64,000 nt of DNA from Rhizophagus irregularis (Eukaryota > Glomeromycota > Glomeromycetes > Glomerales > Glomeraceae), in NCBI RefSeq assembly GCF_026210795.1, contig NC_089436.1, positions 2,852,001-2,916,000 of the forward strand, given 5' to 3'. Positions within the stretch are counted from its first letter, which is position 1. The number at the start of each line of letters is the position of its first letter. The notes beneath the pieces are model-generated. The model was not told the DNA's origin and made no database searches. It worked only from the letters and a program-made list of their open reading frames with translations. This document shows, piece after piece, positions 12,349 through 47,894 of the stretch. Both the position numbers and the translations under genes were made by a program.

Positions 12349-14225
12349 ATATTTATAATATAAATTTTATATTATATAAGATTATAGTTTATTTATTTAT
12401 TTTATTAAAAATTTTATATATTTCATATTTTTTATGTATTATTAAACATTTTATTAATAAATAAATTTTTTTATATTAAATATTATATAATTATATAATA
12501 AATTTTAATTATTAAAATTTTACCAATAATATAACTTTTAAAACCAAAAATTGTATGTATTTTTATATACTTTACAAGTTTACTTAAAATATTAAAATAA
12601 GTTTTAAAGTAAATTTTAAGAAAAATTAACTTTTTTGATTTTTTTTTCTTTATATAGATAAAATCAAATTTTGGATTTATAACCTTTTTTGGTGCCTTAA
12701 ATAAACTTGTAGAGCATATAAAAATACATATAAATAATGTGAAAAAAGGTGAAAATATATAAAAAAATATGATAATAATCACATATCTGTATTTAAAAAA
12801 TATTATTTATATATAAAAAACAATTATTTATCATTTTTAACAGTTAATTTCTAATTAACTACTGGCTTAATTTTTATAAAATTTGATTTATTTAAATCTT
12901 TTTAATTCTTGAGAATATTCCTTTCATATTAAGTACATATGATATTAATTATTATTTACGGTATACAAAAATGTGGATTTAATAACAACAATTGAAGAAT
13001 TGAAGATTTGACATGAAAAAAAAGAAAACATTCTTTATTGTTTTACTAACCTCCATTTTGTATTATTTTGTATTGTTTAAGAAATAAACCATATATAACT
13101 ATAAGTAATTGGAAATTTATAATGAATAAAATGAACAAGAGGTGACATTTTCTAAGTAAAAAAATATAATCATTAAAATCATTTTACCAATTTTAACTCA
13201 CGAACACGCTTAAAATATAAAGAAATATCAATAGAATGGATTCTAAAATGATCGTTTGACACATTTTAACATAAAATAAAGACTAAAAAAGTAAAAATAT
13301 TGAAAAATTCAATCTTACATATATCTTTGAGATTAACAATTTACACTAATTTAAAGAACTTTTATATGTTCACTTTTTTTATCATTTGAACTTACCTAAT
13401 CAATAATACTCCTTTACTCCTTTGCGTAATATTATGCTATAAGCTATTACAAAAAAAGCACCAATAACAAAACGATTTCAAAAGATATTTAAAAAACCTT
13501 TTAAAAAAAATTGTATTGAAAATGACCCCAATTATATTCCAATAATATTTAGTTAAAAATTTGAAATTTTTTTAAAAGTTTGTCTTGTATTCATATTGAA
13601 ATACTCAAATTATTATTAAGCCCATATGGTATGATATGGTTTTTAATCTATAGCGTACAGACTTGTAAAAAAACCATATGTAAGTAGATTTTCAGTATAC
13701 AAATAAATAACAATAAGATAAAATATAATCAAAATACAAATAAAAAAAATTTTAATTTCTAATTCTATATTAAAGAGAAATTTACTTTTACACGTTTGCA
13801 TTTTAATTTGTATATTGCTAATATAAATACTTTTATACCAGTTCTTTCAGGTTTATTAAGAATAAATAATTGCAAAAAGAACATAAGCAGAAGGTTATAG
13901 TTACATAATTTATAATAATCTAATTAATTATGAAAGAAACAGCACTAGAATGTTGGCTTCTCTATTCTTAGTCTGTATCAAGGCAGAGCTTTATTTATAA
14001 TAAACAGAATTACAATAAATTGTTTCTAAATACATATCAAAAATTATTTAATATAAAAATAACTTAAAATATATCAATAATACAAAATAAATTAATAATA
14101 AAACATAAAGTCTATAATAAATTTAGGGTGGTCTCTTCACATGTGTTTTATTGAGTTAAAGTAATAACAAGTTTTGCTGAGGATGTATTTTCATGTCATC
14201 AGTCTTTTTCACTTTTTTGCATGTG
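12349..14225. other. Extremely AT-rich intergenic stretch
   Basis: No gene supported. A 99-codon minus-strand ORF at 12483-12782 is Lys/Ile/Phe low-complexity translation of AT-rich DNA. Confidence 0.5.
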
Positions 14226-15020
14226 TTTTTTACACTTTATGCATTCCATTTTTCTCATCACTTTACTAAAAGCAGTCATATCAGTTTTTTTTATTCTGAC
14301 ACCCTCTGATAAAGCGTTCCACTTTTCTAACATCATTTTACTAAAAGCAGTCATAAATTTTTTTTATTCTGACACCCTCTGGTAAAGCATTCCATTTCTC
14401 TAACATCATTTTACTAAAAGCAGTCATATAAGTTTTTTTATTCTGACACCCTCTGGTAAAGCATTCCATTTTTCTAACATCATTTTACTAAAAGCAGTCA
14501 AATAAGTTTTTTTTATTCTGACACCCTCTGATAAAGCGTTCCACTTTTCTAACATCATTTTACTAAAAGCAGTTATATAAATTTTTTTTATTCTGATACC
14601 CTCTGGTAAAGCATTCCACTTTTCTAACATCATTTTACTAAAAGCAGTCATATAAGTTTGTTTTATTCTGACACCCTCTGATAAAGCGTTCCATTTTTCT
14701 AACATCATTTCACTAAAAGCAGTCATATCAGTTTTTTTATTCTGATAAGGCATTCCATTTTTCTAACCATTCTATATTATATTGAATAGTTAGATCCCAT
14801 TGAGTCTGGAGGTTATCCTTGTCATTTTCGTCAAGGTCTGGGTTGGCTAAAGCATGTTCGCGGTCTTTTCGTTTTCTGGTAAGGCATTCCATTTCTCTCT
14901 TATCATCTTGCTAAAAATGAACATATCAGTCTTTTTCGCCCTCTGGTGATGCATTTTTTAACACCCTCTGGCAAGGCGTTCCACTTTTCTGACATCATTT
15001 TACTAAAGGCGGACATCTTA
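14226..15020 (-). repeat. 75-bp coding-phase tandem repeat, seven units plus degenerate edge units
   Basis: The phrase ACTAAAAGCAGTCAT recurs at 14266, 14341, 14414, 14488, 14563, 14638 and 14713, giving spacings of 75, 73, 74, 75, 75 and 75. On the minus strand the four upstream units stay open (14753-14424) and each encodes TAFSKMMLEKWNALPEGVRI plus about five residues, with L/S and G/I variants. Single-copy, more divergent versions lie just upstream on the minus strand: MSAFSKMMSEKWNALPEGVK near 15015 and FSKMIREKWNALPENEK near 14930, along with ALANPDLDENDKDNLQTQWD near 14830. This looks like amplification of one exon-sized helix from a larger gene now broken. The helix resembles the second helix of an HMG box (EKWNALPE), but that is a weak guess. 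Confidence 0.75.
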
Positions 15021-17510
15021 ATGTATAGTTTTAAAACTTTATAAAATAATAAAATAGCAATAACTCCTATAATCATTTTAAGATCTTTATCTGTATCCTT
15101 CCAGATTTTAGCACATCCTAAAAAAAAAATATTATAAAATTAGTTTATTAAAAGAAGAAAACAACAAATAAAAAAATTAAATAAATAATTTTAAAAATAA
15201 ATATAAAACATATATTAATCAAACATCTTATTAATTTATAGTATAATCTATTATAAACTCAATAAATTACATTTAAAGCTATTAACTAGGTTTCTTATTT
15301 CTATTGAGTAATAAGTTTTTTTTCTCAGTTTTTTTTTAAAAAATTTCAAAGAATAAAAAAAAAAGACTACTGCTTGTATTTAAGTAAAATAATTGCCAAA
15401 TATTCTTTTAAAAATTCTCTTACCTAACTTAAAATCTTGGTGCAAAACTGATAGGGAGCTGATGGGAGTTTAAAATGAAAATAGTTTTTCGTTATTTGGT
15501 CCAAGTAAATTCTTTTATATTTGTATCCATATGGTCATGTAACACAACATTATTTAGTGTGCATTACGATTGTAAAATTTCCTAATTTAGGCTGATTTTG
15601 TAATTAATTCCGCATATCCAATCACTCAATTTTGTATCACAGGTGACTAGACTCTGATTTTTCATTGGTTATTATAATGATTTAATATATCAACTATGAA
15701 AGCATTTTTTTACATCTTCAATGTTAATTATCATCTCTATAGAATTGATATGAATCCAAACAGATATTTTACAATAAAAATTAAATATTTTCAGCACTAT
15801 AGCAAAAGTTTTTCAACTATAGTAATTGTAAAAATATATGTTTACCAGTATCCGTTTGAAAATAAGGCATTTATTATCACCAGAACCAGTCATTTTTGCT
15901 TTATTAATCTAGCATCTACAACTTATATATAAATTCAGGATAGGAGTTGAAAGCAGCTGCAGTTTGGTATATAATGTGAGAGTTCATTATTATTATAATA
16001 AAATTATCATTTATTCATATATTATTATGCATTATGTGTTTTTCCAAGTAAATTGTTAATTGGTTATTTGCATGATACTATGCAAAGATAGCAAGGTGAG
16101 GAATATAGGTAGATATTTTGAATTAAATTTGAATTTGAGAAGATTGCCTATTATGATTTTTATTTTTAGCTTTTTTCTAATTTCATTTTTAGGTTTAACA
16201 ACATCAATTTTTTACAAAGATTTATATTATTTTAAAAGTTATAAACTAATAAATGAAAAAAGGAAATTGTATAATAATCTTTCATATTTTATTGTATGTA
16301 GGGAAATGTCTTTAAGAATCAAAGTCTAATCTTCATCATTTCATTCCTCCTTGAATTCAATGATAGAATGTTCATATATAATGTACTTTGGCAGGTTCAT
16401 TTACATTTGTTTTATATTGGAAATATTCGTGGCTTGAAATTTTATTTTGGTATTTTAAAAGGCACAAAAATATTTTGGGCAATGTAGAGTGATGTACATT
16501 TATAAGCCCCATTTTATTGAAAAAGCCACTGCAAAGCAATGTAACGTTCCTGAAACTTTGTGTGGTATTTAAAGTTCTAGGACTGATGATTATATTTGAA
16601 ATATGAATTCAGTTATAAGAGGCTTTTTAGTCAAGTGCTTGAGCGCTTGTTATAAAAATACAAATAAAAAGCCTTATGTTATACCAATAACAATATCTTA
16701 CATAAACACAATTGTTTAAGATGATAATTGAATGGCGCAATATGGCTTTTAAAGTGGCTTAATGTTTTATTAAGAATTAATAAAATTTCAGTAATTTTAT
16801 TGGATGTTCTATTTCTGTAGAATGAACTTAATTTTGATTGATACACTGTGCTTATTTAGAAACTAAATCTATGAAAAATATATATACTTAAATGTACTAA
16901 AATAGACTTAAAATACAATTAAAACTATCTGATGAAAAGATAGGAACCAAACATAATGAGTAATATGAGTAATAATAACTTGTAATTAGATAATTAAATA
17001 ATATTTATTTGTAATAATGTGATATAAAAGATATATGATATAATATACCTATAAGTAATTATTATATATATAATATAATAAGTGTTGAAGAATTTTATAT
17101 TTTTTAATGTTTTTAATAGAAAGTTTTAAAAACATTTCTAGATATTTTCTTTTTTGTAAATTTCGGGTTCAAGAGCGGAATGCAAAAATACATGGTACAT
17201 TTCACAATAGGTGTTGTCCTACCATCAAAGTTTTTTTTGATAGATGTATAATAGAATAAGCATAATTCGCATAATAATACAATATGAGTCAAATTGTAGT
17301 ATCACCAAATTTCAGATTTTTTGATTGATAAAATCATTGATCATCAACAATCAATAAATGTATATTTTATTTAGATTGAGTAAATTTACAAGCAACTTCA
17401 TATAAAATACTACTTAATGATTAACCAATTGTCCTTATAATATAATCATACGTGGTAATCTTTAATCTATCAAAATTTTGCACTTTTAATATTATACAAC
17501 CCAAATCACT
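15021..17510. other. Intergenic, no gene seen
   Basis: Two short plus-strand ORFs (15696-15932, 16060-16329) are hydrophobic and have no recognisable domain or splice context. I treat the stretch as noncoding. Confidence 0.45.
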
Positions 17511-24077: not shown

Positions 24078-25550
24078 CTATCTAGTATTTATATAATTTC
24101 CTATAATATTATAATTAAAAGAAGAAAATAAATCTATATTATCAAACCAAAAATTATCACGATGAGTGGTCCAAGGCCTTGAATGTAAAAAATTACTGGA
24201 AGTCCATCTAATATGGACTTCATTATTATAAAATTCACCCGTGCGACTATACGGGATGGTAGGAATTTGTCTATGAGTATAGGTACGACGCAAGGTTGAA
24301 TCAGATTGGATGTTATCAGGCGGAGAAGAGTTATCGTTTGAATGGTAACGTCGTCTATAAAATTTCTTTTTGACTTTCGTAATAGAGAGATTCCGTTCCC
24401 ATTCCTTGACGTGAGCGTTACGACAATTCCAAATTGATAAATCAATTTTTTCCATAATAATGTTCATAAATTTGATAAAAATCGAAAATCGTGATTTTTT
24501 ATCCGTTATATAATTGTAAAAAATTAACGTTAGGTCACTTGACACCAAATGATGAATTAATAGGTAACAAGGATGGTCGGTAGGTAACGATCCGACAAAA
24601 TTTACGTCAAATAATCGAGAACTATTAATAGTCTCTTCCAAAGCGTGGTCCTTTTCATTAACATGTTCTTTAATCAAGATTAATATAAAGTTTTTCTTTG
24701 TTCACTCAAAATGTGATGTATGTCATCGGTGTGTGCCGGGCATAAGCCCACATGTTCATTGTTATCCTTCATATTTTGCATTCAATACAGGGAATTTTTC
24801 CTAAAGGATATAAGCGGGGATAATTACGTTGTTGAATATCAATCGTCGGATATATAAAATTACATTTTTTCAACCTTGCACCTTGTCGTTTTGATAATTT
24901 AGCACTACAAGGAGCATCAGTAGGATTGTGGTTTAACCATTCTTTAGTAAAAGTCCAATCGATATCACCATCAATAATCTGTTGTTTTATAGGTGTTAAC
25001 GAAGTGTTGTTGACCATGGAATTAAAGATCAGTGGTTGAATAACATTTTGGGACCATTTTCTTACGTTGCGACCGATCACGTGCTTATTATTCCACGAGA
25101 CGATCCCAGGAATTTGTTGATAAAAAAATTTATGGTTAACTATGATGGATCTTTAATATGAGCCCCTGCCTTTGCGAGTGTATCGGCTATGTGCCTATGT
25201 TATTATTATCATCATCGCCATGTCCTTTCACTTTGCGTAAGGTGATTAATAAATGTTTTTCCTTAATTAAGAAAAATATTAAATCCCAAATAAGAAAATT
25301 AGTTTGTTTCAATTTTTGTCTAGGGCTGATAATTGGTGAATTAAGGAGAGTTTCAAAAACGTTAATACAACTAGCAGAATCCGTATAAATGTTTAAACTA
25401 CAGTTATATGGTGAAACGATAATAGCTGTTGAAATTCCCATCGCTTCACTTTTCGTAGACGACGGGAAGAAAACGGTTGAACCTTTAAAAGACAATCGTG
25501 GCGTATTCGGTTGTAGTGATTTTGATTCATTCAAGTATATTCTCTAGAGA
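24078..25550 (-). pseudogene. 5'-truncated LINE with RNase H and zinc knuckle
   Basis: The 5' piece (25534-25187) is an RNase H domain: KSEAMGISTAIIV, then IYTDSASCINVF with a catalytic Asp, IKEKHLLITLRKVKGHGDD, and after a one-base slip the final ADTLAKAGAH. The middle piece (25080-24769) reads GRNVRKWSQNVIQPLIFN, FTKEWLNHNPTDAPCS and PRLYPLGKIPCIECK. After another slip NNEHVGLCPAH follows, completing a C-x2-C...H-x3-C knuckle typical of LINE C-termini. The last piece (24677-24078) holds ERNLSITKVKKKFY and the C-terminal tail. The RT domain is absent, as expected from 5' truncation during target-primed insertion. Two frameshifts make it inactive. Confidence 0.82.
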
Positions 25551-32312: not shown

Positions 32313-35170
32313 ATGAGCTGCTCTACACCTCAAATATTAGATGATGTTAGTTATATTTCTTTACCTAATTAAAAGTGTCATGAAATGTTAAACAATAATA
32401 AATTTGTTATTATTTTTTTTTTTAGATATCTGCTGAATTGCCTGAATATAGTGGAGATTTTGATCTTGACAAAGAAAATGAAAATATAAATTTAATAACA
32501 GATAAAATGAGAGTTGGCGAAATCAGATATTCTGTATTGCCAATGGAATATCCATCAACTTCTGCTGAAGGAATTGCAATAGTATATAACATTGAAACTT
32601 GGGATAATTATGAACAAGCATTTAATAATGTAAGCAGTATATTTAAATTGTAATATTATATTTTAAGAAATTGGTAATCATTTGTATTTTTTTTATGCAG
32701 ATGCAGTACTTTCAAGGTCGTCCCTCTGGAGGAGGTGATACATCTATATGGATGGTGTCCTTTTCTAGGATGCCATGTTAAAAAGTATATTCGTACATGC
32801 CAAGGTATAAAGGCATGTGAACATCTTAATGAAGATCTTAGAAATAAAGTTCATACAGAGGTTGATATGGATCAAGACTTTTACCAAACTCCTAGTGAAG
32901 CAGCATTAGAACAAAGGACAAAGGAAGCCAAAACATATACGTAAGTATGGATTAATAAAATACATTAGTTAATATAAATGCAAAAATACTTATTTTTACT
33001 TTTTTTTATTAGAAAATACCTTGCTACAACTGCTATACATTGTCCATATGATAATGGAAACTGTAAAGGTCATTTTGTTTCTCGAAAACAAACAAGGCAG
33101 ATATCTTCTGCTACTGAGGAATGGTTTATAGGTTGTAGTAATTGGTGTGATAAGGGTAAGAAAGGTAAACATTATTTTGAAAGACTAAAAAATGATGTTG
33201 ATCCAGAACTCTTGGGAAGGTTATTTAATGGTGAGAATATAAGTATATCAATATTTCATAAGTTATAATTTTAGTATGCATATTATTTATTTAAATTGCT
33301 AATATATATCACTACTAGCTTGTATCTATTGGAGAGATTGGAGAAGCAAATTCATGTAATGTTATTCTTTCGTCCAATTCAAGAAGAAAAACTTGTGGTA
33401 AATAAATGTTTTATCAAATATTAAATTTTTTTATTTGATATAATTAAAATTTTCAAATTTTTATTTTTTAGGATTTTTACATCAGCATTCTGATGATAGA
33501 ATTAAAGAAGGCAGAATTGTTGAACACAAGTGTAAAAATAAATTTTACAAAATTATACCATTGGATTTGAAAAAAACACCATATGTTATACTTATATCAA
33601 AAGGTATTCATACTCATCATCCTCCTCCACCAAGTAATGTTCCTTCTGATATTACTGAGAAATTAAAAAAGATGATTGAGGTGGAAAGTGAAGAACTTGT
33701 AAATATTACAGCTAGGAAACTTATTTCAGGTAATTCCTAATTATTTTATTATTAATATGATTAACTGTTAATAATATTTAATTTATTTATTAAAGGCAAT
33801 TTAATAAAAGCTACCTTTGGTAAGGAATATTTACCTCAGGTTCATGCCTCATTGAATAACATGGATAAGTTACGAAGACTTGTGGCAAAGGTTCAAAAAG
33901 CACATCATCTATATGGTCAAGGTATTCTTGGCCTTACTTATAACATTTGGAAATGTGAAGAAAATATCTTGGATATGTTCAACAATCAGGTACTATCAAT
34001 TTTATTTAGTTTTTTTATTAATTATTTGATTAAAAGTTACATTATTTTTTATAGCAACTTTTTCAAATGGGCATATAATGGTTATCTGTATGTCTGAAGT
34101 TATGGCACATGCTTGGACAAAACTATAATATTTTGAAATTGATCTTTCATTTAAAAGAGTTCAAGGAGACATCAATGAATTTGAAGTTAATTGCTATGAT
34201 TCACAACATAATATGAGTAAGTTTAAAAAATTATTTCAAATTAAATATAATTTCTAAGCTAATTGATTATTAATTTTATAGGTTTAACTTATGCACATGT
34301 TTTTACTAATATTGCTGATGCAATTGCTTATGAAAGAATGTTTAATGCACTCTTTGATTGGATATATCAGCTAACTGGCAATAAACCACAAATTTATCAC
34401 ATTCATCAAAAAGGATGGAAATGCATTTTGGGTGACTTAGACCAAGCACAAGCCAAAGGACTTGGAATGGCTTTACACAAAATACATAACTCTCTCACAT
34501 GGGAAGAGCACTTGCTCCATATTTTTAAAAGTTGTCATATTCATTACAATAGGTAAAGTTAATATATTGTATTTATATTTTTATAAACTTATAATATACT
34601 GTATTATTTTATTTATAAACTTTATTTTTTTATTTTAGAAATGTAAAAAATAACAAATATTCTTATCAACTTAAGAAATTAATGTATGAATTTCCCAATG
34701 CAAGCACTACTGAACGTGTCAATCAAATCTTTGAAGAATTAGAAGCATCAGATGAATCTACTATTAAAGGTTTATAAAGTTTTGAATTGATTAAAATCAT
34801 CTTGTAATATTAAAAAAAATATAATTCTCTTTTTAGATTGGATTGCATTCTATTCAAAACCTTGGGTACGTGCATCCTTAAATCCTATATATTCATTTAT
34901 AGCTTTAGATATTTGGCAAAATGCACCAGACAATACCAATGTGGCAGAATCTTGTCATGCCAATTGTAATCGGGATGGAAAAGCATTACCTTTAGAAGCT
35001 GCAATATTAAAGTAAGTAATAAATTTATTATACAATAGTTTATTACATATGTAAAGTTGGCTAATTAAACTCATTATTAGAGCTAAAAATTCAATTTATA
35101 TCTTGTGATATTCACAATTGTTATGGAGTTGCAAAATCTGGTAAAGACCAAGGAGTTGTAGCATGAAGCA
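32313..35170 (+). pseudogene. Multi-exon MULE-like transposase with GCM/WRKY-type zinc finger, disrupted
   Basis: Exons with good GT-AG sites: 32313-32345, 32426-32629, 32701-32940, 33013-33230, 33319-33397, 33472-33729, 33796-33989, 34055-34216, 34282-34552, 34639-34769, 34837-35011. Cys/His-rich segments come first (HCPYDNGNCKGHF, GCSNWCDKG). Then CNVILSSNSRRKTC-GFLHQH, HKCKNKFYKI and SKGIHTHHPPPPS suggest a WRKY-GCM1-class finger. The core has YFEIDLSFKRVQGDINEF (first Asp) and CILGDLDQAQAKGLGMAL (second Asp). It ends with NVAESCHANCNRDGKALPL, placing a His/Asn-rich motif after the core as in Mutator-like transposases. Breaks: a frameshift near 32730, a phase clash between exons 4 and 5, a frameshift and TAA in exon 8, and loss of frame after 35040. 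TIRs were not found. Confidence 0.75.
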
Positions 35171-36080: not shown

Positions 36081-36216
36081 TTTGGGTAGGCTAAAAGCCA
36101 TGTTCGGTCTATGGGAGTATGACAAATAAATTTATTTATTTTTTCTAGTAAAGATTAAAATAAAAATATACATTTTATAATTCGTTAAATAAAATTTATT
36201 ATACCAAATACTATAT

Positions 36217-36323
36217 ACTTATTGTATAGTATTTAGGCAATAACGTGCTGTTTTCGATTGAGGCCATTTGATTGGCTCAGATTGTGCCACGAAGGGATAA
36301 TCTTACCACACCACCTCGCGTGT
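36217..36323 (+). repeat. Left terminal inverted repeat of the 36.2-41.0 kb element
   Basis: It pairs with the inverse of 40907-41007 joined to 39793-39808. The innermost part, CTTACCACACCACCTCGCG, is perfectly matched once the nested insertion is removed. Confidence 0.75.
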
Positions 36324-36616
36324 TACAAATATTAATAGTGTTGGTTACACTGCATAAAGGATGTGACATTTTATGCAGGTGACAAATAGAGATCAGGCCA
36401 CAAAAATTTTCTATTTATTTTATTACTAGAAGAGTAGTATGCTAAAACTATTACAAATAAGAGAAAAAACAACATTTACATGTTCATTAACTAATATACG
36501 TGTATAGAATTTTAGACATTAATCCCCTACGGGACCTCACCCTTCGAACTATCTATTCAAAAAGCTAGGACTATGCTAACTTTCTAAATGGAAAAAAGAA
36601 AAACTAAAAGTAAAAC

Positions 36617-36760
36617 CCGTCCATCCGAAAGTTGAAGAAACCTAAAAAACAATCCAGAAAAAAATTTAAGAATCCGTATTTTTCTTTCGACAAAGTCGCC
36701 ACTTGTAAATACTGTAAGAAGTGGAATATTTCACACTATTTTAAGTTGTTTTTTGAGTAA
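36617..36760 (+). other. Short basic Cys-containing frame near the left TIR
   Basis: A plus-strand open segment reads IRKLKKPKKQSRKKF, then FSFDKVATCKYCKKWNISHY. The C-x2-C-x6-H spacing with a basic lead looks like half of a zinc-binding exon, perhaps a DNA-binding part of the element. It has no ATG and no second half that I could find. Confidence 0.25.
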
Positions 36761-36837
36761 AATATATAAAATTGAATGAATAAAAATGTAGATTAAACTA
36801 CTCGATAAAGGGTATTTGACTCCTAAGGTATAAAAAT

Positions 36838-38727
36838 TTACATATGAATAAAAAATTTATTAGTATTAGTTGACGGTCCAACTACTGAGGAGTCATCAAC
36901 ATTTTCAGTAGAAGGGCGAGGACGTTTATGAGGATGTAAAGAAATGTTTGTTGATGAATTATCAAAACGAGTTGAATTGTGTTTGTTAGGTCAGCGTTCT
37001 ATGGCTTTAGTATCATCTGATATCCCGTAATGAGTATCGGGAGCTACTTTTTTTAAATTGCTCAAAATTTTATTTAAATTTCTATTGAGATTTTTCTGTT
37101 TACGATCATTATTAATGTGGTCAGGATGATTCTTGTTTGCAATATGATGACGTATATATTCATCATATGTATTCTGTATGTGTGTTAAGCACTCTTGATG
37201 ATGTAAGCGTGAACATAAATGTTTAAAAGTGGTGCCATGATAAGTAGCCTCTGCTGTGTTTCGTTCAATTTTAGCTTTGTATTCAGCATCAACCTCAGCC
37301 TGTTATCTACGAGCAATTTCATCAAAGCGTTGTTGTCTTCTGATTCTTCGTTCTAAATTATACATATAGGTGAACCATTCTCGAGATCCAGGTGGGATGT
37401 AAATTTCACCTTCAGTGGTAAAAATGTAAATAGGATCTTTTGGGATAATATCACAGTATTTCACTGGTATAAACATATTAGGAATCAGATTATATGTTTC
37501 AACCCAAGGGATTGTATCATCAGGAATTTGTGAGGTCAGAGCAATGTGAAGACAGGCATTAAGAAAATTCACGTTCTCCTTAATTATTTTTGAATGTTGA
37601 TCATTAGTTACGTAGAAAGGTATATGGAATTTGTAGTTGTCTGTGTTCGGCATAACATTAGCCTTCTTGTATAATAAGTGTTTGATGGGTTTGTTGATAT
37701 ACTGTGATTTAACGAATAGGAATCAATATTTTCAGCCTATAGCCAAATAATCTAAGTGTTGAGCAGTACGTTCACGAGGTAATTTCATCTTACTAAAGAC
37801 GTGATGACAAGCGCGATCAAAACGGTTTTCTTGCCATTTCCACGTGCGGAGATTAGGACTTGGTATCTTTTCAAGATTTGATAATCTTTTTTTGTACATG
37901 TGTTTGTTGTGAAATTTGAGGACAGATGAATTGTCCTGAGCATGGTAAGAGGAAATATAGGATATACCTAATCTTTTGGAGAAAATATGTTTTGGTCGTC
38001 CAGATAACCATCTAAAATATAACAGGTTAGCATGTGAAGTTTTACTATTTGTAAAATCAGGAGTAGTATCTTTATCTATGTATTCAATTTTAGGTTTGAT
38101 ATTATGAAAAATATTGGTTTTAAAAAATTGTGATTGGTGATTGACGCAAGCACGTCTATCACGTGACATAATAAAAGGAGAAGGAATGTTACATGTATCA
38201 GACTTAGAAAAATTGTCTGAATCTAAATGAATATGAGAACAAGGTGTAAAAATTCCAAAATAAAATCTATATTTTTTGTAACTAAAATTAAAAAAAGTTC
38301 TAGTGTAAATATTTCTGGTCGTCATCAACGAGCCACGTGATTCAATGATATTAATTCGGTCCAATAATTTGTTTTGAAGCATATTAAAATATTTTTGTTG
38401 GACACAGCGGGGTATAACTCTTTGTAGGGAAAAAAAGTGTGTGAGAATACAACTAATTTGGTATTTGTTATTCGGAAAGCCACTCATGTTATTGTAACTA
38501 ATAGGTTTTGTGTTCATTTGATAATCATTTGTGTGTATCGTTAAGTGAATATTATTGGTGTTCGGGTTATGATCGGCGAGCTCAAAAAAGAAGCTCCTCG
38601 ATCGACGAATTTCGTATATCTTGTTATAACCTGTTCTATTTGGTTTGGTCACGTGAAATTTTTTCAGGGAGACCTGTAAGGGAGTTTTTGAGAATTTTTT
38701 TTCCAAAAAAAAATTTTTGGAAGACAT
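36838..38727 (-). pseudogene. 630-codon ORF of the TIR element, four in-frame stops, unknown family
   Basis: The frame opens at an ATG at 38727 and keeps register to a TAA at 36838. It is interrupted only by TGA at 37734 and 37725, TAA at 37305 and TGA at 36993; there is no frameshift. Visible landmarks are a basic N-terminus (LKKFHVTKPNRTGYNKIYEI), then FRWLSGRPKHIFSKRLGISY, LRTWKWQENRFDRACHHVF, PPGSREWFTYMYNLERRIRR and the His-rich HHQECLTHIQNTYDEYIRHH. The end is a basic/Ser-rich tail. Sole ORF between long TIRs, it is the best candidate for the element's transposase, yet I see no familiar DDE, HUH, YR or RT motif. Opal-type stops fit CGA-to-TGA decay of methylated DNA. Confidence 0.6.
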
Positions 38728-38949
38728 TTATAATAAAATATGGTATTAAAGGATAGTAAAATATTATATTATATTTAAAATATAAAAGTGTAAAAGAAAC
38801 AAAGGTTTCAAGGGTATAATAGGATGACAGAAGAAATAAAAAAAAAACTCTTGTATAACTACTGGGTTGTATATTACGTTAGGGATGAAAAAAGACGTTG
38901 TAACTTGACTGTATAATTCTATTAAAAGTATAAACTTTTACCATATGTA

Positions 38950-39534
38950 CACTACTTGGACAAAAGTAGCAGGAATTCATCATATTTTATTAATTACTCA
39001 AAAACATACATATTAATAATACTTGAAATTTTAATATGTAATAACATAGATAATAAAGAATATATATTCAAAATTTCATAGTTCTAGCCTTCATACAACT
39101 ATGTTAATTAAAAAAAGAAATTTAGTAATTAGCAACAGTATTATTGTTTTTAAAATTTAATTTTCTTTCAATTTTTTATACAATCCATATAAAAACAAAA
39201 ACTAGAAAAAAGTAATTTGATGTATATATATTAATTAAGAACCTGTACTGCCACATATTAAAATTTCTGGTCTCATTATTATGTATAATTCCAAATAAAC
39301 TGACAGTATCAGACTATTTGTTTATTTTTATTATATAATATATAGATAATTATTAAAATTTCTTTCTGAGTTTTCTTTAATTAATGTAGTTGTATGAATG
39401 CTAGAATAATGAAATTTTGAATATATATTCTGCATTGTCTACGTCATCACATATAAAAATTTCAGGTATTATTATTATGTACATTTTCAAGTAATTAATA
39501 AATATGAATTCCCGTTACTTTTGTCCAAGTAGTG
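38950..39534. mobile_element. Tc1/mariner-like foldback MITE, 585 bp, TA target
   Basis: Both ends are CACTACTTGGACAAAAGTA inverted, flanked by TA at 38948-38949 and 39535-39536, the hallmark of Tc1/mariner insertion. The arms keep pairing inwards for about 150-200 bp (GAATATATATTCAAAATTTC, CATACAACTA). No coding capacity. Confidence 0.88.
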
Positions 39535-39808
39535 TATATACTAGAAGATATGGAGTGACTTATATATATTCACGAGTTGTTGTAAGTTAAAAAAAAAGTA
39601 CTAGCTAGCAAAAAAAAGTGTAAAAATAACGTCTATTTTGTAATAATAAAAATATTCTACTGCGCCATTTTAATAGAAATTGGGTTTATCGGAAAGAGTT
39701 TTTTCACAAAAATTTTCAAGTCGCTGAGATAAATATAAACAACGCGGCCACTGCCATCACGTGACCATGTGACAAATTCATCACCTGTACTACGCGAGGT
39801 GGTGTGGT

Positions 39809-40906
39809 TAGTGTCTCGACCCGTATCCGGATCAATCCGGATTGATCCGGATTTTTTTTTTTTCGGATATCCGGATTTTCACGGTTTTCATCCGGATTAT
39901 AAACCGGATGAAAAATATCCGGTTTGACCCGAAATCCGGATGAAATTTTTATTATTTTTTTTTTTAATTAATAATGATTTTGCTGATCCATAAAGATCTA
40001 TATCTAAATTATATTATGGCTAATTATTTTTGCGCCTAATACCAATTTTTTTATTAAAATTTATTAAATTTATATTTGTTATATTAAACTTTTTAATACA
40101 GTAAGTTTAAGAAGATTTTTCAATTATAATTTATTTATTGAAGTTTGTATCAGATTTGTTTATTTAAATTTATACATTAACAAATAACAAATAATTTTAG
40201 ATTTCACATTCAAACGTTCAAAAGAAAAAAAACTTTATATTATTTTTGTTACAACAAAATAATAATTATTGTTTTAAATGAACAATTGTTCAATATTATA
40301 AATTTATATAATTATAACAACTTTTTTTAAAAATTAAAACTAGTGTTATATAATTTGATTCAAATGATTCTTTAATTTTTGAAAGAAGAAACAAATCCTT
40401 AAAAAATTGCCTTACTAACCCAACACATCTATTTATAGTAATCTTTAGCTGTATATAAAAATATCTTGTTTAAAATTTCATAATTAGTTAATTTACAAAG
40501 AAATGTTAAACAATATTCTGAGACAATGCTGAAATAATATGAAATTGTTTTAAAAAAAAGTATTTAATGAAATTGGAATTATGTAAATTTCGTGGTCTTG
40601 AATAATTTTGGCCAAATTTGTAATTCTGGCCGAAATTAACATCACGTGACACCAGAAAATAGTTTAGCCACCGGGCAAAAAATTTTTTATCGGCTGGCAT
40701 GAAATTTAGAGTTACACAATTTGTAATTCTGGCCGGCGTTATGAATTCTGGCCAGAATTATTGCCGATCATTTGTAAATCCAATCCGGTTTCCGGTTTCT
40801 ATCCAGATTATCTGATCCGGATTCAAAATCCGGGTCAATCCGGATATAATCCGGATTTTTTTTTTGTGTAATCCGAATGACGGTTTTCATCCGGGTCGAA
40901 GCACTA
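39809..40906. mobile_element. hAT-like non-autonomous element, 1,098 bp, in the host TIR
   Basis: The ends are TAGTGTCTCGACCCG and TAGTGCTTCGACCCG (inverted), matching the YARNG start of hAT TIRs. A perfect 8-bp target duplication GGTGTGGT flanks it at 39801-39808 and 40907-40914. Both subterminal regions are packed with ATCCGG and CCGGAT words in both orientations (39820-39955 and 40780-40890), as expected for hAT transposase subterminal binding sites. The interior is AT-rich with two GGCCAGAATT-type patches (40605-40775). It has no transposase frame; a 64-codon minus ORF is incidental. Because it splits the right TIR of the larger element, it is younger than that element. Confidence 0.88.
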
Positions 40907-41007
40907 GGTGTGGTAAGATTTACCGCCACGAAGTGGTACAATATGACCGATCAAAATGGTTGAGATTGAAAACAGCAAAGTATTGCCTAAAGGCCTATAC
41001 AATAAGT

Positions 41008-46396: not shown

Positions 46397-47894
46397 ATGG
46401 CGCGCCGATGTGGACAGATTGGTATTTTTTTAATACCAACTCCCGCTATTTAAATAATATCAGCTCATGTATTTTAATATTACTGCAAATGGCAGATTTT
46501 TGTCTAAAATGGCAATTTCTTTTTGCATTATTAGACAGATTCATATTTATTTATTACGAACTTTCTCTAATTAAATATTACCAACTCTTGTAATTTTAAA
46601 ATTGGCAGATATTTTTTCTTCAATAGACAGATTTATATTTTTTATTATCCCCTTTTTTTATTAGCAGATCTTTTTTCTTTACCAGACAGATTTATATTTT
46701 TTTATTATTAGCTCTGACGATCATTTATATTCATTAGCAGATCTACTAAATCTCACCGCAGGTGATTTCACCGGTCAAATTATAATTCCAGCCAAATTCA
46801 ATTGTGTAAGCTAATAAAAAGTTTTTGATTTTTTTTAGTTACAATGTGGTATAAATATTGCACTAATGGATCCGGAAGATATCCGTTTATAAGTAAATAT
46901 GCAGTTAAATTTGTGTAGCCTCACTGAATAAATCATTTTACTTAAGAAATCTATTTCGTAATGGTCAAAAGTGGTCTATTTGACCTTAAAAGTGGCAAAA
47001 GTGACCATCAGCTACCTTAATTGATGGTCAAAAGTGGTCTATTTGACCCTAGAAAGTGGTCATATAGCACAGGAATTTTTCGAAAATTTTCTGTTTGGTT
47101 ATACTAATAATTGGTAGTTAAAGGCGAGGGCATATTTGACCATCAATTAAGGCAGCTGAAGGTCACGTTTGACCACTTTTAACCATCAATTAAGGTAGCT
47201 GATGGTTACATTTGACCACTTTTAAGGCCAAATAGACTACTTTTGACCACCAATTAAGGCAACTGATGGTTATTTGACCATCAATAAGGTCAAGTTTGAC
47301 CACTTTTAAGGTCAAATAGACCACTTTTGACCATTACGAAATAGATTTCTTAAGTAAAGTGATTTATGCAGTGAGGCTACATAAAATTTAACTGCATATT
47401 TGATTATAAATGGGTATCTTCTGAACTCATTGGTGCAATTTTTATACCACATTGTTACTAAAAAAGTCAAAACTTTTTATTAGGTTGCACAATTAACTCC
47501 AGCTGGAATTATAATTTGGCCAGAATAAAATCACCTGCGGTAAGGATCACCTGCGGTGAGATTTAGCGAATAAAAATGATCATCAGAGCTAATAATAAAA
47601 AAATACAAATGTGTCTATTAAAGAAAAAAGATCTTCTAATGAAAAAAAGGAGGCAATAAAAAAATATAAATCTGTCTATTGAAGAAAAAAGATCTGCCAA
47701 TTTTAAAATTACAAGAGTTGGTAATATTTAATTAGAGAAATTTGGTATTAAATAAATACAAATCTGTCTAATAATATAAAAAGGAATTGCCATTTTAGGC
47801 AAAATCAGTAATTTTAAAATACAAGAGCTAGTATTATTTAAATAGCAGGAGTTGGTATTAATAAAATACCAATCTGTCCACATCGGCGCGCCAT
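46397..47894. mobile_element. Large foldback element with GGCGCGCC ends, 1,498 bp
   Basis: Ends are ATGGCGCGCCGATGTGGACA inverted. The arms of about 600-700 bp remain recognisable throughout: ACCAACTCCCGCTATTTAAA, GGCAGATTTT, CACCGCAGGTGATTTCACC and TTACTTAAGAAATCTATTTC all recur inverted on the right. The centre holds short tandem blocks of TGACCATCAATTAAGG and GACCACTTTTAAGGTC in both orientations. No coding capacity. Target duplication is not clear (TATGGT-like words lie near both sides). Confidence 0.85.

Follow-up and report, generated by a model that had tools for sequence, protein, structure and literature searches.

Long terminal inverted repeats (TIRs) are usual for MULEs, and HUH elements (Helitron, Rep-like) possess a catalytic tyrosine with an HUH motif and are without long terminal inverted repeats. 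CMC, MULE, Sola-2, Tc1-Mariner, Plavaka, Transib, hAT and Crypton elements are reported in Rhizophagus irregularis in PMC11075540, where own profiles had to be made for Academ, Novosib, Sola, Zator and other superfamilies. According to PMC8647823, unclassified repeats account for 24% of the R. irregularis genome, with expanded gene families set aside, and this gap is also discussed in PMC11075540; considering such a large unclassified share, unnamed elements like the one described here are therefore to be expected in this genome.

We have analysed a 64-kb stretch of R. irregularis DNA (the window), in which a relic resembling a TIR DNA transposon surrounds a long, broken minus-strand open reading frame (ORF). 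The relic resembles MULEs in its long TIRs, its one main gene and its length of a few kb, and differs from them in matching neither the MULE nor any other transposase profile and in having no in-register target-site duplication of 9-11 bp. With the class II TIR transposons of the DDE/D superfamilies it has in common that its terminal repeats are inverted and enclose one long frame, whereas the catalytic domain is unrecognised in the ORF and the structure models are too poor for judging the fold. It is also similar to the unclassified repeats of R. irregularis, since it is mobile-looking and without a recognisable domain. In our judgement the ORF is most likely, with a probability of about 0.55, the transposase of a decayed TIR DNA transposon.

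Table 1. Features of the relic, its nested inserts and the adjacent broken frames (positions in the window)
Feature	Position	Strand	Basis or remark
TIR DNA-transposon-like relic, 4791 bp	36217..41007		inverted repeats; outer ends uncertain by several bases
Left TIR	36217..36348	+	local alignment with right arm, aligned stretch out to 36207
Right TIR, outer part	40915..41007	-	local alignment, aligned stretch out to 41015
Right TIR, inner part, severed by hAT-like insert	39761..39808	-	local alignment
Candidate transposase pseudogene	36838..38727	-	stop-depleted frame, 630 codons, four in-frame internal stops
Longest open piece, 331 aa	37735..38727	-	open-run listing; contains FRWLSGRPKHIFSKRLGISY
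hAT-like insert, 1098 bp	39809..40906		ends TAGTGTCTCGACCC / GGGTCGAAGCACTA; splits right TIR
Tc1/mariner-like palindrome, 585 bp	38950..39534		flanked by TA, with CACTACTTGGACAAAAGTA at its ends; located between ORF and right TIR
Broken frames directly outside the element	32978-35012	+	contain GIHTHHPPPP, GDLDQAQAKGLG, NTNVAESCHANCNRDGKALPLEAAI

The sequence-only reading had placed a 630-codon ORF on the minus strand, running from 38727 down to 36838; both its position and its strand were found again, and the motif quoted there is present in the translation. The frame is indeed coding-like over 630 codons, but it is not intact. Against its five stops, the remaining frames have 39, 41, 53, 27 and 83, while 30 and 41 stops would be expected by chance under two composition models (binomial P approximately 1e-8 and 8e-13, respectively). 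Since only 5 stops stand against these expectations, the frame must formerly have been coding and is now broken. Additionally, the open run of 331 codons is longer than the maximum of 194 obtained in 500 first-order Markov sequences modelled on the ORF region, and longer than the maximum of 146 in 20 simulated first-order Markov sequences of the size of the window. The frame is thus more than a product of chance, and with its internal stops it is a pseudogene in pieces. The internal stops (three TGA and one TAA) lie at 37732-37734, 37723-37725, 37303-37305 and 36991-36993, the terminal one at 36838-36840, and they leave pieces of 331, 139, 103 and 50 aa together with two residues which separate the first two stops. 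A code in which TGA stands for Trp was considered because of the TGA-heavy stops and was rejected, since one internal stop is TAA and all four can be accounted for by ordinary decay; the plus strand as the coding strand was ruled out by its 39-53 stops per frame.

Inverted repeats of 105 bp had been proposed around the ORF. Real long inverted repeats do flank it, but they are longer than that: in local alignment, from which the coordinates of the right arm were derived by hand, the arms cover 137 aligned positions, of which 113 are identical and 17 are gaps, and the score is 128, whereas none of 1000 first-order Markov pairs scored above 57. The pairing joins 36207-36348 with 41015-40915 and continues beyond an insert at 39808-39761. 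By blastn the left arm matched 41007-40907 (74.5% over 102, E 1.7e-10), and the inner piece of the right TIR was detected at 39811-39786 (E 5e-4). For neither the ORF nor the TIR was a second copy found within the 64-kb window. No target-site duplication beyond chance was seen at the flanks of the element: the best match, 10/11, lies outside the register of the repeats, in the control 16 matches of 11 or 12 arose among 300 position pairs drawn at random, and a duplication of 9-11 bp in register with the TIRs was not found there.

Two inserts are nested in the relic. The one splitting the right TIR is bounded by the 8-bp direct repeat GGTGTGGT (39801-39808 and 40907-40914) and is without a long ORF, its longest open run being 83 aa; we take it to be hAT-like on account of the 8-bp duplication and of end sequences typical of hAT elements. 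Many TCCGGAT repeats are situated near its ends. The palindrome folds far better than its shuffles (z -14.1, 0 of 20 shuffles equal) and presumably represents a Tc1/mariner MITE, which it resembles. The observed/expected ratio of CpG is 0.32 in the palindrome and 1.74 in the hAT-like insert. The in-frame stops and the nested inserts together are consistent with an old copy of the element. By arithmetic, about 3.1 kb remain of the relic without its two inserts and their duplications, and the 1890-bp ORF occupies about 61% of this length. The earlier claim that the element has no long frame besides the ORF holds for this one copy in this window, since all other open runs of at least 50 aa in 36201-41000 reach at most 83 aa. 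One of the short runs, 36614-36757 on the plus strand, contains a lysine-rich stretch and CKYCKKWNISH, which is faintly reminiscent of a zinc-binding motif; it gave no Pfam match.

The assignment of the ORF as a transposase is based on arms far above chance, on a sole long coding-like frame which takes up about 61% of the 3.1 kb, and on a deviating codon usage. The ORF is richer in C-ending codons than a pool of three further long ORFs in this window; the share of CGC among Arg codons is 0.17 versus 0.00, and that of TAC among Tyr codons is 0.50 versus 0.13. Its CpG observed/expected ratio is 0.96, the three other ORFs ranging from 0.44 to 0.61 and the whole window having 0.81, while the GC content is 32.8% in the ORF and 27.0% in the window. 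Such a codon usage is what would be expected of a mobile gene. Against this assignment stand the missing transposase profile match, the lack of a recognised catalytic motif, the missing target-site duplication, the single copy in the window and the unusual composition of the protein. The relic would be classified as a decayed class II (TIR) DNA transposon with a single minus-strand gene, which most likely encoded the transposase. This protein may have bound the terminal repeats of approximately 130 bp, and it would have excised the element and pasted it elsewhere; its catalytic core was probably of the RNase H-fold DDE/D type that most known TIR elements have. Later this copy received four in-frame stops and two insertions, and intact copies may exist.

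A strong profile match to a known transposase family was looked for as the result that would speak against a new family, and none was seen in Pfam, PHROGs, NCBIfam or PDB. All Pfam matches of the four pieces were under the curated cut-offs (DUF7298 E 0.14, Adeno_E4 E 0.078), with none for the 50-aa piece. The lowest E-value across the sequence searches, DUF2031 at 0.00038 (20.5 bits, cut-off 27), came from the 103-aa helical piece alone and was absent for the read-through protein; further sub-cut-off matches of this piece were HTH_Mga (0.023), DUF3819 (0.076) and OKR_DC_1_C (0.095). With the read-through protein only Adeno_E4 was left, at E 0.032 and under the cut-off. Transposase profiles, the MULE transposase domain included, were lacking among the Pfam matches up to E 10, although a diverged and decayed domain could escape such a scan. 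The NCBIfam profile search gave zero matches, and the best E-value in PHROGs was 0.099 for three of the four pieces. By sequence the PDB returned nothing for the 331-aa piece and three weak matches for the read-through protein, located on its helical C-terminal part (best E 0.046). In tblastn the 331-aa piece found one phage record at E 4 and zero plasmids. In IMG/VR 18, 7 and 20 stretches fitted the peptide patterns of three pieces and 0 were confirmed, and three DNA patterns had zero matches; in the GTDB genomes 0 of 7 stretches were confirmed and the 22-base TIR pattern remained unmatched. Rfam had no match at the gathering threshold. What was searched is prokaryotic or viral in content or consists of profile libraries, and scans of contigs detect close relatives only; a mobile gene of a fungus would for this reason be expected to look like an orphan, and the orphan status of the ORF is of little weight for its novelty.

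The alternative that survives best places the ORF in a described superfamily (e.g. MULE-, Sola-, CMC- or Academ-like), as a diverged and decayed transposase which was missed by single-sequence profile scans. This is in fact a sub-case of our explanation, differing in the placement of the element and not in the function of the protein, and we regard it as a real possibility, if somewhat short of an even chance. Long TIRs as in MULEs, the range of superfamilies reported in this species and the profiles which had to be made for several of them are in agreement with it. The broken frames directly outside the element, which to our reading look like a decayed transposase gene, were likewise without a Pfam match above cut-off in the four pieces searched (to 34553); the best one, 7tm_7 at E 0.00046, was under the cut-off and was judged compositional. 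If the frames at 32978-35012 are indeed a transposase relic, decayed transposases of this genome commonly go unmatched in Pfam. Opposed to this placement are the lack of any known transposase profile at any E-value in Pfam and NCBIfam and the lack of a target-site duplication by which the superfamily could be named. A diverged member of a known superfamily is nevertheless the likelier home compared with a new superfamily: that the ORF is the founding, broken member of an undescribed eukaryotic long-TIR transposase superfamily, with a core possibly outside the RNase H fold, appears improbable. Rejected was also the reading of HIHLD as an HUH/Rep signature (Helitron, Rep-like), since there is one HIH triplet (residues 165-167), and one or two are estimated to occur by chance at 5.6% His, long TIRs are present, and no such profile was matched in Pfam.

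It is rather unlikely that the ORF was captured by, or was accessory to, a non-autonomous TIR copy whose transposase gene lay elsewhere or has been lost. Such an origin would suit the absence of an enzyme signature in the Pfam scans, the codon usage and the composition of the protein, which is odd for an enzyme: it contains 1.9% Gly, 3.0% Ala and 2.9% Val, being poor in these residues relative to typical enzymes, with 9.4% Asn and 5.6% His. The C-terminal part, modelled as long helices and the sole stretch with pLDDT >70, points in the same direction. The two single-sequence structure models are poor (mean pLDDT 36.7 and 32.1); both predict strands around residues 44-66, a pair of helices within 86-132 and a hairpin around 141-162, at a confidence too low for inference. 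Foldseek compared the model of the 331-aa piece with the PDB (146 matches at E <=10, best 0.18, CD1/EPCR-like chains on top) and with BFVD (127 matches, best 0.15), with zero matches at 0.001 or better in either; at a predicted pLDDT of 32 these matches carry no meaning. Against an accessory gene, the ORF occupies most of the element, the other open runs being 83 aa or shorter, and the two flanking runs tested had no Pfam match. Still less probable is a remnant of a host or viral gene lying by chance between two unrelated repeat arms, for which the single copy in the window and the missing target-site duplication could be cited, but the arms are inverted, alike over more than 100 bp and each present once in the window, and no host or viral family was found at a usable score in Pfam, PHROGs or BFVD.

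The surroundings of the relic include long genes of the Sel1-repeat and TPR types (26 stretches of Pfam Sel1; TPR_2). This gene content and the AT-rich composition of the window are suggestive of an arbuscular mycorrhizal fungus of the Rhizophagus kind. A second pair of inverted arms, 46498-46659 and 47643-47804, each of 162 nt, 90% complementary and 983 nt apart, is probably a further TIR element. Tandem-like repeats of approximately 75 bp, several copies of which are >90% alike, lie at 14208-15022, and a 199-aa ORF at 24078-24677 on the minus strand gave no Pfam match up to E 10.

Represented by one broken copy, the relic described here is mainly a lead. Should there be intact relatives that carry these repeats, a part of the unclassified repeats of R. 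irregularis would gain a named element family, and the element might add a transposase family as well.
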